From Comamonadaceae bacterium CG12_big_fil_rev_8_21_14_0_65_59_15 (GTDB taxonomy: Bacteria > Pseudomonadota > Gammaproteobacteria > Burkholderiales > Burkholderiaceae_C): a DNA stretch of 64,000 nucleotides. Shown piece after piece: positions 2,675-7,171 of this stretch. Below the pieces are notes generated by a model that was given only the letters and a program-made list of their open reading frames with translations, was not told the DNA's origin and did not search any database. The DNA lies in NCBI GenBank assembly GCA_002786915.1, contig PCUV01000049.1, positions 155,601 through 219,600 on the forward strand, in the 5' to 3' direction. Each line of letters opens with the position of its first letter. The stretch's first letter is position 1. The position numbers and the translations under genes were made by a program.

Positions 2675-2887
2675 ATGCGAGCATTCAAGACACGGACGTT
2701 TTAGCGCTGGGCCGGAGCAAAGGCCGGAGTGGTGTTTTTCCTTTTTGGATTCGAGAAGAACGACCGCAGCAACATCACGGCGAAAGAGTTGGCCCTTTAC
2801 CAGCGCTTGGCGCGTGGATTCTTGAATATGAGCGAAGTCCAGATCACGACTGCGCTGTCAGAACAAGTTTTGATGGAGGTGACATGA
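2675..2887 (+). pseudogene. RelE/HigB-like toxin with large internal deletion
   Basis: The N-terminus MRAFKTRTF is followed at once by TAG, and the C-terminal half continues downstream in another frame as GVVFFLFGFEKNDRSNITAK and then ELALYQRLARGFLNMSEVQI, ending TGA at 2887. This is the start and end of the same toxin family as 1902-2297, with the middle (~40-50 codons) deleted and the frame lost. The final codons overlap the antitoxin start (ATGA), the normal translational coupling of the pair. The toxin is therefore inactive. Confidence 0.85.
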
Positions 2888-3186
2888 TGAGCCGAATGAT
2901 CAGTGAATCGTTGGAGACGATGCGCGACCTCGAGCAAATCGGTGTCGTCAGCAAGCAGACCCTGCGTGATTTTGAAGCACAGGCTGTGCCGCCACCCACT
3001 TATACGGCTGAAGCAATCCGGCGCTTGCGCGAGCACTTTCATGTTAGTCAATCCGTATTTGCGGCCTATCTCAACGCCAGCGTTTCAACCGTACAGAAAT
3101 GGGAAAACGGCGATAAAAAGCCCAGTGGGGCGGCGCTGCGTTTGCTTTCGATCATCGAGCGGCGCGGGTTGGAAGTCTTGGTCTGA
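2884..3186 (+). CDS. HigA-like antitoxin, orphaned by toxin decay
   Basis: A 100-aa protein starting MMSRMISESLETMRDLEQIG with an Xre-type helix-turn-helix (VSQSVFAAYLNASVSTVQKW). A good ribosome binding site, GGAGG, lies about 7 nt before the ATG inside the end of the broken toxin gene. The open reading frame is intact although the toxin is deleted, so it may persist as an autoregulator or as an anti-addiction factor against related toxins. The identical core in the fragment at 1495-1570 indicates a recent partial duplication. Confidence 0.85.
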   Translation: MMSRMISESLETMRDLEQIGVVSKQTLRDFEAQAVPPPTYTAEAIRRLREHFHVSQSVFAAYLNASVSTVQKWENGDKKPSGAALRLLSIIERRGLEVLV

Positions 3187-3494: not shown

Positions 3495-4264
3495 TTAGCG
3501 GAATTTGTCCCGCGTCTTGTGGTGGAAGTAGACGGCCAGCAGAACGAAGGCCAGCATGAAGCCGCCAAGGGCCATCGCGTCCACGCCAACCGTCCAATAG
3601 GCCTTCTCGCCAAAGCCGATCCGCACCAGATCGGCGCAGTAGGACAGCGGAGAGAACGGCGAGAGCCATTGGCCCCAGTTCGGCATGTCCGCATGCGGAA
3701 TGAAAACGCCGCTGACGAACATCAGCGGCAAGCGCACCAGATTCGAGAGCATCATGACCTGCGAGGGGCCTTCTGTGGCGGGGGCCGACAGCACCACACC
3801 CAACCCAGAGAAGGCCAACGCGCCCAATACAAGGCCACAGACCAGCGCGAAGGGATTTGAAACCACGGCAGAGGTAAACGCCACAGAGCCTGTCAGCGGG
3901 ACGAGCGACAAAAGCACGCCGAACAGTCCGCCAGACAACACATCACCGCCAACAATGGCAGGCAGGCCCGCCGGGGATGTGACAAGCCGCTCATAGGTGC
4001 GCGCCTGGCGCTCCCAGGGCGTCACCAATGGCCCCACCGCCGACGCCGTGAAAAACAACGCCATGGCCACGATGCCGGGCACCATCACAGCTACGGGAGC
4101 GTTATGTCCCGCAGCGAACGACAAATAGAAAAAAACGGGAACACCACACCAAAGGTCAGAACGGGCGGCTTCATGTAATAGACCATCGCGTTCTTCTTGG
4201 CGATGACCAACACCTCCCGCAGTTGCCAGCGAAGTTCGGAGAGCGCGCTAATGCTTGGCAACAT
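3495..4264 (-). pseudogene. ABC-2 type permease, split by one frameshift in a poly-T run
   Basis: The gene starts at MLPSISALSELRWQLREVLV (ATG at 4264, AGGAGG upstream) and reads to VVFPFF. The frame then changes at a run of seven T (plus-strand AAAAAAA near 4129-4135) and continues as SFAAGHNAPVAVMVPGIVAM to a stop at 3495. Adding one T restores a continuous ~256-aa protein with about six membrane segments, normal for an ABC-2 exporter permease. The start overlaps the end of the ATPase gene, so the two form one exporter. The lesion may be a true mutation, homopolymer slippage (phase variation) or a sequencing error. Confidence 0.8.
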
Positions 4265-5228
4265 CGCTGCCTCCTGCGGTGATGGAAAGAAACACCTCTT
4301 CAAGCGTCGGCGCGCGCGTGTTCAGGCTGTCAATGGACAGGCCCAAGGCTGTGGCCTTGGTCGCAATTTCTTGGGCGACGCGTCCGGGCTCGGAATCAAA
4401 CACCTGAAACCCGTGGGTGCCCATGACGACCTTGCCCCGATTTTGCGGGAGCACATCGTCAGGCGTGACACCGGTCTGCGCAAAAAGAACCTCGACCGAG
4501 CGCAGCGACGAAACGCGGCCTCGCAGAGCGGCGGGTGTGTCGATGGCGGCCAGCTTGCCCTGGTTGATGATGGCAACCCGATGACAAAGGTGGTCCGCCT
4601 CGTCCATGTTGTGGGTCGTGATGAAGACCGTCATGCCTCGCTCGCGGTTCATCCTCTGGATCACCTCGCGAATCATGTGCGAGCTGGCCACGTCGAGGCC
4701 GCTCGTGGGTTCATCGAGAAAAAGAACCTGCGGATCACTCACCAACGCCATGCACAGCATCAGCCTTTGGCGCAACCCTTTGGAAAGGTCGCGCCCTTTG
4801 TTTGCCTTGCGCGGCAGCAGGTCGAAGATGCCCAGCAACTCGTCTGCGCGGGACAGTCGCCGCGCCTTGGGCACGCCGTGCAACTCCGCCATCAGCAAGA
4901 TGTTTTGCAGCACTGTCAAATCGGCATACACGTTGGCTTCCTCGGGGACCACTCCAATGAGGCACCGTGCTGCCGATGGATGCTTGGCGACATCCAGCCC
5001 AGCGATGCAGGCCCGGCCACTGGTTGGCCGCACGAATCCCGTCAGCATGCGAGCCGTCGTGCTCTTGCCCGCGCCATTGGGGCCGAGGAAGCCAAAGACT
5101 TCGCCTTGGCCCACCTCGAAGCTCACATGTTCGACTGCAATGCGTTCGCCAAAGGCGCGCGTGAGCCCTTGTGCGACGATGGCTTGGGCTTGTATCGAAG
5201 GGGCCGGTTGCGCGTTTTGGGATATCAA
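4248..5228 (-). CDS. ABC transporter ATP-binding protein (ABC-2 exporter type)
   Basis: A 326-aa ATPase with Walker A GPNGAGKST near residue 50, Q-loop region, signature DLSKGLRQR, Walker B QVLFLDEP and the H-loop in TTHNMDEADHLCH. The ~100-residue C-terminal extension is typical of NatA/CcmA-like and multidrug-type exporters. The only in-frame start compatible with the alignment is TTG at 5228, with GAGAAG upstream. It is third in a same-strand operon (DUF4395, thioredoxin-like, ATPase, permease) with short gaps. The substrate cannot be deduced. Confidence 0.93.
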   Translation of the reverse strand: MISQNAQPAPSIQAQAIVAQGLTRAFGERIAVEHVSFEVGQGEVFGFLGPNGAGKSTTARMLTGFVRPTSGRACIAGLDVAKHPSAARCLIGVVPEEANVYADLTVLQNILLMAELHGVPKARRLSRADELLGIFDLLPRKANKGRDLSKGLRQRLMLCMALVSDPQVLFLDEPTSGLDVASSHMIREVIQRMNRERGMTVFITTHNMDEADHLCHRVAIINQGKLAAIDTPAALRGRVSSLRSVEVLFAQTGVTPDDVLPQNRGKVVMGTHGFQVFDSEPGRVAQEIATKATALGLSIDSLNTRAPTLEEVFLSITAGGSDVAKH

Positions 5229-5258: not shown

Positions 5259-5657
5259 TCAACGGGCAGCCGATATGACCCCTTTGGCGTCATCAATGGT
5301 CCATGAACCCTTCATGTTGGGTGCGGCGGGAAAGCTTTTGAGCTCAATGGCCGCGCCATCTTTGCGAGCAAAGGCATATTTGCCATCCACCAAGATCAGA
5401 ATGGGCGCATGGCCAGTCACACCCACAGCGGCGGCGCGCTTTTCGCCAGCAGGCGTATCCATGTCGATTTCAACCACGCGCGCGTGCTTGCCTTGACTGG
5501 CCAGCCAATCGCGCAGAGGCTTCAAGGCCGACTGCACGGGCGGGTGGGCGAATGCGATGATTTCCACGACGGGTTGCGCGGCCCACGCGGCTCCCATGGA
5601 CAAAAGCAAAGCGGCGGCGGATGCGCTGCTGATCATGGTTCGGCGATTGAGGCTCAT
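5259..5657 (-). CDS. Exported thioredoxin-fold protein lacking CxxC
   Basis: A 132-aa protein. The N-terminus SLNRRTMISSASAAALLLSM with AWAAQ is a Tat-like signal peptide (twin Arg, hydrophobic stretch, AxA site). The mature part has a thioredoxin-like pattern: VVEIIAFAHPPVQSALKPL where a CxxC would sit, and the cis-proline segment GHAPILILVDGKYAF. No cysteine remains at the active site, so it is probably not a disulfide oxidoreductase and may be a binding or chaperone module. The start at 5657 has AGAAGGAAT upstream. It is second in the operon, between DUF4395 and the ABC ATPase. Confidence 0.75.
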   Translation of the reverse strand: MSLNRRTMISSASAAALLLSMGAAWAAQPVVEIIAFAHPPVQSALKPLRDWLASQGKHARVVEIDMDTPAGEKRAAAVGVTGHAPILILVDGKYAFARKDGAAIELKSFPAAPNMKGSWTIDDAKGVISAAR

Positions 5658-5707: not shown

Positions 5708-6466
5708 TCACTTGCAGTTGTTGTGCAGCTTCCACTTCTCTTCGTGTCCAAGCGCTTTGGCAAAGTCGGGTACCTTGCAGCGCTCGGCTTCGGCGGGATC
5801 GATGGGCGCTGCTGGCTGGACGGCGACAGGTGGCTCAAACTCGGCGGCGCGCTTGGGAGCCGTGCTGTAAACCCACTGCGCAATGGCTCCGACCGCCACG
5901 GCGAACGCGATGACAATGGCCGTTTGTGCAAGAGACGTAGACGATGCTTGGCTTACAGGCATCTCACACACACCACCGGGACAGAGCTGAGCTTTTTCCT
6001 TGTTGAAGAGGTTGTAAATCTTGCAGCCAATGCAGATGCCAAACGCCGACTCAAAAAATAGCAGGGTCAAGCACATCGAGCACACGATCAAGTTGATCGG
6101 CCCGATGACATTGTTGAGCACCACCAGATAGAGCATGGTGGCCGCCAGCACGAATCCGATGGCCCATGCGAATCTCTTTTGCGGCGCGCCGCTCCATTCC
6201 GGCTGCTGCTTGCGCACCATCCACTGCCCCAAAATCATGATCGGCGCAAAGCGTGGATTCACAAAGATTCGGATAGTGAACTCGATCAAAAAACTGACCA
6301 CGAACACCCGTGTGGGCTGAAAGTTGCCGGTGAGCCACGCATTCATGAAGACGATCAGCGCCAAGAAAAACAATATCCCCGCCGCGGCGCGAACCGCCCG
6401 CTCGTTGAGGACGGGAATCTGGTATTCGGGGCGCATTTCACCGAATTGAAGAATGGCATTGGACAT
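5708..6466 (-). CDS. DUF4395 family integral membrane protein
   Basis: A 252-aa protein starting MSNAILQFGEMRPEYQIPVL. It has four to five hydrophobic segments and the DUF4395 pattern (RFAPIMILGQWMVRKQQPEW; SAFGICIGCKIYNLF). A cysteine-rich stretch, CIGC followed by CPGGVC, lies after the fourth helix and could bind metal. A further membrane segment and a ~60-aa proline/alanine-rich tail follow. Function is unknown. It is the first gene of the operon read away from the Crp/Fnr regulator, directly downstream of two FNR-like palindromes. Confidence 0.85.
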   Translation of the reverse strand: MSNAILQFGEMRPEYQIPVLNERAVRAAAGILFFLALIVFMNAWLTGNFQPTRVFVVSFLIEFTIRIFVNPRFAPIMILGQWMVRKQQPEWSGAPQKRFAWAIGFVLAATMLYLVVLNNVIGPINLIVCSMCLTLLFFESAFGICIGCKIYNLFNKEKAQLCPGGVCEMPVSQASSTSLAQTAIVIAFAVAVGAIAQWVYSTAPKRAAEFEPPVAVQPAAPIDPAEAERCKVPDFAKALGHEEKWKLHNNCK

Positions 6467-6507
6467 AGGAATCTCACATGAATCGTTGTGCAGAGTATTG
6501 CTCACGA

Positions 6508-6535
6508 ATGATAAATATCATATGATTAAAATCAT
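6508..6535. promoter_or_regulatory. Two abutting FNR-like palindromes
   Basis: ATGATAAATATCAT (6508-6521) and ATGATTAAAATCAT (6522-6535) are perfect 6+2+6 palindromes with no base between them. Both fit TGAT-N4-ATCA, the core of the Fnr-family box TTGAT-N4-ATCAA. They sit between the divergent DUF4395 operon (start 6466) and the Crp/Fnr regulator gene (start 6554), so the regulator probably controls both directions. Confidence 0.8.
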
Positions 6536-6553
6536 ACGAACTGAGATTTACCC

Positions 6554-7171
6554 ATGTTTGCAGATGCCCTTGAAGAACTTCACCAACTGCTGCCGAAGAG
6601 TTTGATTTCCTCCTGCGAGGAGGTTGAGCTAACCAAGGGGACTTGCCTGTTCAAGGCGGGTGACAAGCCCGAGCGCATGTTTTTCGTGGTCAGCGGCGAA
6701 GTGGTCTTGGAGCGGCCCGGACTGCAAGGCTCTTCCGTCATATTGCAGCGCACGCGCAGGGGCTTCGTGAGCGAGGCGAGCCTTAAATCCGCGAAATACC
6801 ACTGCCACGGCCAGGTGGTGGCCAACGCCAAGATTGTTCAGATTCCAATTCGCAAGGTCCGCGACGCAATGGACTGCGATCCGGCCTTTGCGGGGCGCTG
6901 GATTGGCATGCTCAATAAGGAGGTTAAACGCCTGCGCCTCCAATGTGAGCGGCTATCTCTCACCAAGGTGCAGGACCGCTTCGTCCACCTGCTGGAGACC
7001 GAGGGCGTTGACGGTCACTACCCCATCGGGGCAGGCCTCAAGTCTTTGGCGGCCGAACTAGGCGTGACCCATGAAGCGCTCTATCGGTGCGTCTATGCAA
7101 TGGAAAGGCAGGGAAGGTTACTGCGCGCAGATAACAGTTTGCTCTTGGTGTCAGGCTTGATGGATACCTGA
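6554..7171 (+). CDS. Crp/Fnr family transcriptional regulator
   Basis: A 205-aa protein with an N-terminal cyclic-nucleotide-binding-type beta barrel (ELTKGTCLFKAGDKPERMFF, then VVSGEVVLERPG), a dimerisation helix (LNKEVKRLRLQCERLSLTKV) and a C-terminal winged helix (GLKSLAAELGVTHEALYRCV). The cysteine arrangement of Fnr (three near the N-terminus plus one central) is absent. A few isolated cysteines remain (residues ~21, 30, 84, 107), so a 4Fe-4S cluster of the Fnr type is unlikely. It is divergent from the DUF4395-ABC operon and separated by two Fnr-like boxes, so it is the likely local regulator. Confidence 0.9.
   Translation: MFADALEELHQLLPKSLISSCEEVELTKGTCLFKAGDKPERMFFVVSGEVVLERPGLQGSSVILQRTRRGFVSEASLKSAKYHCHGQVVANAKIVQIPIRKVRDAMDCDPAFAGRWIGMLNKEVKRLRLQCERLSLTKVQDRFVHLLETEGVDGHYPIGAGLKSLAAELGVTHEALYRCVYAMERQGRLLRADNSLLLVSGLMDT

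Follow-up and report, generated by a model that had tools for sequence, protein, structure and literature searches.

Layout of the divergent locus

The window, a 64,000-nucleotide stretch of DNA analysed here at its full length, contains a gene for a Crp/Fnr-family regulator (hereafter REG) and, divergent from it, an operon headed by a gene for a DUF4395 membrane protein. The features of the locus are as follows.

6554-7171, + strand: REG, Crp/Fnr-family regulator, 205 aa (PF00027, 40 bits)
6522-6535, no strand assigned: box 2, REG-proximal, ATGATTAAAATCAT, part of the 16-mer TATGATTAAAATCATA
6508-6521, no strand assigned: box 1, DUF4395-proximal, ATGATAAATATCAT
6494-6499, - strand: predicted -10 hexamer AATACT of the DUF4395 promoter, with constant spacing to the box in 20/20 loci
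6487, - strand: predicted transcription start of DUF4395, from the hexamer position
5708-6466, - strand: DUF4395 membrane protein, 252 aa (PF14340, 104 bits; alignment of 58; model pLDDT 80.9)
5259-5657, - strand: exported 132-aa protein with a thioredoxin-like pattern, no significant family or structure match
4248-5228, - strand: DrrA-like ABC ATPase (PF00005, 104 bits; TIGR01188, E 2.8e-87, below the cut-off of that model)
3495-4262, - strand: ABC-2 permease, frame broken (PF01061, 80 bits on the 3' part; intact in 7 relatives)

The genes named in the original prediction (a Crp/Fnr regulator, DUF4395, a CxxC-less exported protein and an ABC-2 exporter) were identified correctly. Two RelE/HTH toxin-antitoxin-like pairs (1589-2297 and 2729-3186) adjoin the end of the operon; the RelE protein of the latter matches just the last 50 profile positions and looks truncated.

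Both boxes read ATGAT-N4-ATCAT and lie in the gap between the divergent REG and DUF4395 genes. They had been described as two abutting, perfect 14-bp palindromes of the form TGAT-N4-ATCA. The location was correct but the perfection was not: the 5-base arms are perfect in both, while the N4 centres are not self-complementary, leaving each box symmetric at 12 of 14 positions. The REG-proximal box can be extended to the 16-mer TATGAT-N4-ATCATA. TGAT-N4-ATCA occurs six times in the window against 0.39 expected, a number reached in no shuffle, and ATGAT-N4-ATCAT is present at eight places across the 4.34-Mb genome, two of them being the boxes described here; the backwards-pattern control gave 0 in the whole genome. 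A chance occurrence of the box in AT-rich DNA was ruled out by the window shuffles, the genome counts and the counts at the starts of homologues.

Pairing of the box with REG and geometry of the promoter

Among 72 REG homologues from alpha-, beta- and gammaproteobacteria, TGA[TC]-N4-[AG]TCA was found at the REG start in 51, against 0.57 expected from base shuffling; the boxed homologues extend down to 27% identity, and the half-site consensus over the set is [TC]ATGAT. In the 80 loci obtained by scanning for relatives of DUF4395, TATGAT-N4-ATCATA nearly always lies between DUF4395 and any REG homologue divergent to it. DUF4395 loci devoid of REG, if extending far enough, are also devoid of the box, with the exceptions of L028, L059 and L075, in which the REG threshold or contig limits may hide a regulator. 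This pairing bears out the earlier assumption that the adjacent regulator uses the boxes as its operators, a role which is predicted here from sequence comparison.

A survey of 301 family genomes, with a threshold of E<=1e-15 for REG, revealed the regulator in 19 and the exact 16-bp box in 30. The 16-mer is present in nine of the 19 REG genomes, in all nine within about 100 bases of REG, and several other REG genomes bear a one-base variant, TATGAT-N4-GTCATA, in the same place; the 16-bp matches in genomes lacking REG are mostly GATGATCATCAT-like. Since the exact 16-mers of REG genomes adjoin REG, the control appears to be local, as was originally suggested, rather than exerted over a wide regulon. 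A genome-wide regulon was ruled out, the remaining sites in the window's own genome lacking the full 16 bp; the nearest other site, in L003, falls across the start of an unrelated gene. A search of three further genomes from the genus of the window found REG in none of them, which makes the distribution of the cassette patchy.

The 12 box-less rows, all of family f39, form their own clade in the REG tree (L191, L186, L197-L201, L205, L207, L209, L212, L213). This clade is distant, mostly keeps the Tyr-His-Cys (YHC) motif discussed below and has no ATGAT box, and its recognition helix reads AHETFYR or AHETLYR in the rows aligned. As both the helix differs and the box is absent, the f39 operator is probably different.

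With the centre of the REG-proximal box as the alignment anchor and DUF4395 as the direction of reading, a hexamer of the AATACT, AATAAT or GACACT type started at position 30/31 in 20/20 boxed DUF4395 loci, with its core, AYAMT, at index 31/32 in all 20 (shuffle mean 0.25, maximum 2). The same core stands at that index in 7/12 other betaproteobacterial targets (shuffle mean 0.12) and in 0/17 alpha- and gammaproteobacterial homologues. Because of the latter result, and because a flanking TTGCC might there be the -35 element of REG itself, the assignment to class II is limited to betaproteobacteria. Relative to the predicted start at 6487, the box centres in the window fall at about -41.5 (REG-proximal) and -27.5 (DUF4395-proximal), and a consensus sigma-70 promoter was not found within 6400-6620. 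A box near -41.5, a -10 element and no recognisable -35, counted from a predicted start site, would together constitute a class II activation geometry at the DUF4395 promoter; the class II arrangement near -41.5 is known for both FNR and CRP. The possibility that CAATACT is a -35 element of REG instead of the -10 of DUF4395 was considered and appears less likely, as TTG is not conserved in the betaproteobacterial loci. Positions 2, 4 and 6 of the -10 are conserved in these loci, which supports its assignment to DUF4395.

The prediction that two boxes control the operon needs modification: the box at about -41.5 is the conserved unit, whereas the abutting second one is confined to a single clade. 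Box 1 was detected only in the window and in L010-L014 among the loci compared. These six double-box loci form one Rhodoferax-like clade, to which the single-box L026 is sister, so the second box was gained once and then kept, and is a derived feature of that clade. The boxes are 14 bp apart, centre to centre, a spacing at which two Crp-type dimers should clash, and a dimer bound at -27.5 would sit under RNA polymerase. We propose that the second box has a damping or band-pass role.

Nearly all box-bearing homologues have the box next to or close to the start of REG itself, which indicates that REG probably controls its own level. In L157, L160, L161, L164, L192 and others, the box overlaps with the start codon of REG or immediately adjoins it, an arrangement that would suit a leaderless or very short-leader REG mRNA.

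Products of the operon and neighbourhoods of their relatives

The DUF4395 protein is a member of PF14340 (104.1 bits against a gathering cut-off of 24.5). Eight Cys and two His residues are invariant among 58 DUF4395 relatives, the invariant His lying in the tail; it is this invariant Cys/His tail (ERCKVP...GHEEKWKLHNNC) that the form found in the window adds to the PF14340 family. The predicted model consists of five long helices (pLDDT 80.9), with CxxC pairs at 129/132 and 145/148, and gave no significant match to PDB folds. No published function of DUF4395 was found in the open-access literature, a coverage that leaves most subscription journals outside. The mature part of the exported protein contains no Cys and has an invariant HPP where CxxC would be expected (AF[AT]HPPVQ in relatives); a twin-arginine-like start characterizes its family. 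Pfam gave nothing significant for it, the best hint being Glutaredoxin (E 0.027, in 3/9), nor did any solved structure match. Its membership among thioredoxins was rejected, as it has no CxxC and no significant match.

The order DUF4395-exported protein-ABC ATPase-permease recurs in L017, L020, L034 and L046, and with inserts in L009; the unit delineated in the original prediction, with its thioredoxin-like second gene, is thus found in relatives. Some such operons are extended by a LolD/FtsX/LolA-like set, and other DUF4395 genes precede a HlyD-MacB-like set. The ABC exporter is a frequent but exchangeable companion of DUF4395. In the window the ATPase frame is intact, and that of the permease is interrupted at seven consecutive T within 4122-4138, a region which seven relatives read through; the original prediction did not mention this break. 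The exporter of this genome could be inactive, or else a one-base assembly error could be responsible.

Sulfane-sulfur genes occur in 24 of the 42 full-length DUF4395 loci and in 0 of 20 controls (p=4e-6, for query families that were picked after inspecting these same loci). They include rhodaneses, ArsR-rhodanese fusions, persulfide-dioxygenase-like MBL proteins and DsrE; octaheme cytochromes of the tetrathionate-reductase family are also found at DUF4395 loci. In L039, L048, L058, L086 and others, DUF4395 is preceded by all or part of a recurrent cassette, whose members are a TIGR04315 octaheme cytochrome, cytochrome b561, DUF3373 and a triple-rhodanese protein. On a Microbacterium plasmid, TauE/SafE, DUF4395 and rhodanese are annotated together, and on a Methylobacterium plasmid the annotated order is DUF411-DUF4395-P-type ATPase. 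The role that best fits these surroundings would be protection of thiols and sulfur under soft-metal or sulfur stress. The context of DUF4395 points more to sulfane-sulfur or thiol chemistry than to the exporter or envelope-maturation unit imagined at first.

DUF4395 loci lacking REG have other local regulators, either a two-component pair about 0.9 kb upstream or ArsR-rhodanese fusions. In L037, L038, L046, L052, L053, L061, L062 and L064, all without REG, a divergent response regulator is located about 0.9 kb upstream, accompanied in most of them by a histidine kinase. Such a pair would be a different local controller for the DUF4395 operon.

The gene divergent from REG is DUF4395 in one set of relatives and encodes other proteins elsewhere. 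These are an HMA protein (L142, L143, L146), a Spy/CnrX-like 'periplasmic heavy metal sensor' (L145, L149, L157, L162, L188, L194, L210), Met/His-rich exported proteins (e.g. L150, L154, L155, L160, L161, L192, L202) and, at L185, what we take from its motif to be DUF2892. Metal genes were found near 11/12 plasmid-borne REG homologues and in 0/8 control stretches of the same plasmids (p=7e-5), under a generous scoring that counted SCO, CDF or DUF411 within 5 kb and with loci that are not all independent, two being from S. meliloti. The neighbours comprise CusAB, P-type ATPases, CsoR/CDF, DUF411, multicopper oxidase and mercury genes. In the family genomes, 6/18 REG loci matched an independent metal query set, compared with 1/20 control windows. 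The DUF4395-type REG loci add few of these matches, and CopA is near DUF4395-target REG loci only in L017, L035 and L141, so most of the support for a metal link comes from other branches of the REG family. The DUF4395 label needs three changes on the REG tree, which suggests that the pairing of REG with DUF4395 was made or lost more than once. As the neighbours of the REG branch are mainly copper and heavy-metal genes, copper and sulfur compounds move up among the inducers originally listed, and low oxygen and nitric oxide move down.

The regulator, the proposed switch and its relation to known systems

REG belongs to the Crp/Fnr superfamily, PF00027 scoring over its cut-off and the model and PDB matches spanning both domains, a beta-roll of the cNMP-binding type and a C-terminal helix-turn-helix. 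Alignment with CRP and FNR shows that its recognition helix (THEALYR) has retained the Glu and Arg which read TGA in those two proteins. The ligand pocket contains Tyr82-His83-Cys84. His83-Cys84 occupy the positions of CRP Arg82-Ser83 in all 22 aligned REG proteins, and YHC is invariant. Both the N-terminal extension bearing FNR 4Fe-4S cysteines and an equivalent of C122 are absent from REG in the alignment, in accordance with the original view that the regulator probably does not sense oxygen by 4Fe-4S; oxygen sensing of the FNR type was ruled out on this basis, as was cAMP as a ligand, R82/S83 being lost. REG belongs to a wider Tyr-His-Cys branch of Crp/Fnr that looks undescribed. No report of a copper-responsive Crp/Fnr protein or of a matching subfamily was found within open-access coverage, most subscription journals lying outside it. 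The superfamily and the promoter mechanism are known, and we rate the pocket, the operator and the target set as undescribed.

Our preferred reading, to which we assign a probability of roughly 0.55, is that REG responds to soft-metal or sulfane-sulfur stress as a class II activator of local scope. The architecture of this switch is strongly supported at the level of sequence by the box-regulator pairing, the local scope, the fixed promoter spacing, the lost ligand residues of FNR and CRP, and the metal and sulfur neighbourhoods. Binding, activation, autoregulation, the function of the second box, the inducer and the chemistry of DUF4395 are what we infer from it. REG and the DUF4395 operon would form a self-contained divergent switch, in which a dimer of the Tyr-His-Cys pocket branch would bind ATGAT-N4-ATCAT. 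The inducer is most likely soft metal (copper), or linked sulfane-sulfur or thiol stress, presumably sensed through H83/C84. At box 2 (about -41.5), REG would recruit RNA polymerase and turn on the DUF4395 operon; once abundant, it might also fill box 1 (-27.5), and since two dimers should not fit together, occupancy of box 1 should damp the promoter. The Cys-rich DUF4395 protein, its CxxC-less exported partner and the accessory ABC exporter would then protect or re-set envelope thiols and sulfur.

A more speculative elaboration, which we regard as tentative, is that Cu(I) or sulfane sulfur is sensed by an unnamed but widespread branch of Crp/Fnr, via a His-Cys pair in the old cAMP pocket, and that the regulators of this branch are local class II activators with a single operator. 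For sulfane sulfur or for copper-thiol repair, DUF4395 would then serve as a transmembrane cysteine relay, and its promoter would be limited by the tandem boxes to a response within a band of regulator activity.

The same architecture could also operate with reactive sulfur (sulfide, polysulfide or tetrathionate) as the inducer, C84 as a persulfide-sensing thiol and the metal genes as passengers of resistance islands. The sulfur enzymes and octaheme cytochromes at DUF4395 loci, the Microbacterium grouping and the REG relative facing DUF2892 are consistent with such a scheme. However, HMA, Spy/CnrX-like or Met/His-rich exported proteins are the more frequent divergent targets across the REG family, and metal genes flank nearly all the plasmid homologues, which makes this version rather unlikely. 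That REG is a sensor of nitric oxide or of oxygen/redox, of the DNR/NnrR or FNR type, merely located beside these genes, appears improbable: DNR is its closest solved structure (3dkw, E 1.3e-13), the TGAT-N4-ATCA core is common to FNR and DNR boxes and two distant homologues face weak cytochrome c' matches, but the FNR cysteines are absent, the outer base of the half-site is A, not T, and the targets have to do with metals or sulfur, denitrification genes being absent from those neighbourhoods that were read. It is equally hard to believe that REG is chiefly a repressor, with TATGAT of the box being -10-like and the inducer freeing one or both divergent genes, for although the box abuts or overlaps the REG start codon in most homologues and the alphaproteobacterial TTGCC, about 18 bp from [CT]ATGAT, could belong to REG's own promoter, in betaproteobacteria the conserved hexamer on the target side agrees with activation from -41.5, and reading the other way reveals no conserved TTG.

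If local activation in response to metal or sulfur stress is true, a further sensor type would be added, namely a branch of Crp/Fnr, spread over three proteobacterial classes, whose operator is fixed, whose pocket is altered and whose targets are metal or sulfur genes. Bacterial metal sensing is usually assigned to the CsoR, CueR/MerR, CopY, ArsR and two-component families. With one regulator, one box and one promoter, the locus is a ready test system, and the DUF4395 membrane family gains a regulator, a predicted start site and candidate inducers.

Among curated Crp/Fnr equivalogs, FtrB (NCBIfam NF006901) is the best for REG, which scores 37.1 bits against a cut-off of 211 and is not a member. 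With E. coli CRP, REG has in common the fold, E72 and the recognition-helix Glu/Arg, but His-Cys replaces the cAMP-phosphate-holding R82-S83, and the half-site is TGAT instead of TGTGA, the homologue set reading [TC]ATGAT. With E. coli FNR, it shares the Crp/Fnr fold, the recognition-helix Glu and Arg, the TGAT half-site and the predicted class II position near -41.5; unlike FNR, it has neither the N-terminal cysteines nor a C122 equivalent, and therefore no 4Fe-4S oxygen sensing of that kind. The DNR/NnrR group (P. aeruginosa DNR) resembles REG in fold, in being devoid of Fe-S cysteines and in the TGAT-N4-ATCA core. REG differs from this group in the invariant YHC pocket, in the outer half-site base (A in 54/57 boxes, whereas the DNR/NnrR box is TTGAT-N4-ATCAA), and in having one predicted local target and metal or sulfur neighbours instead of denitrification genes.
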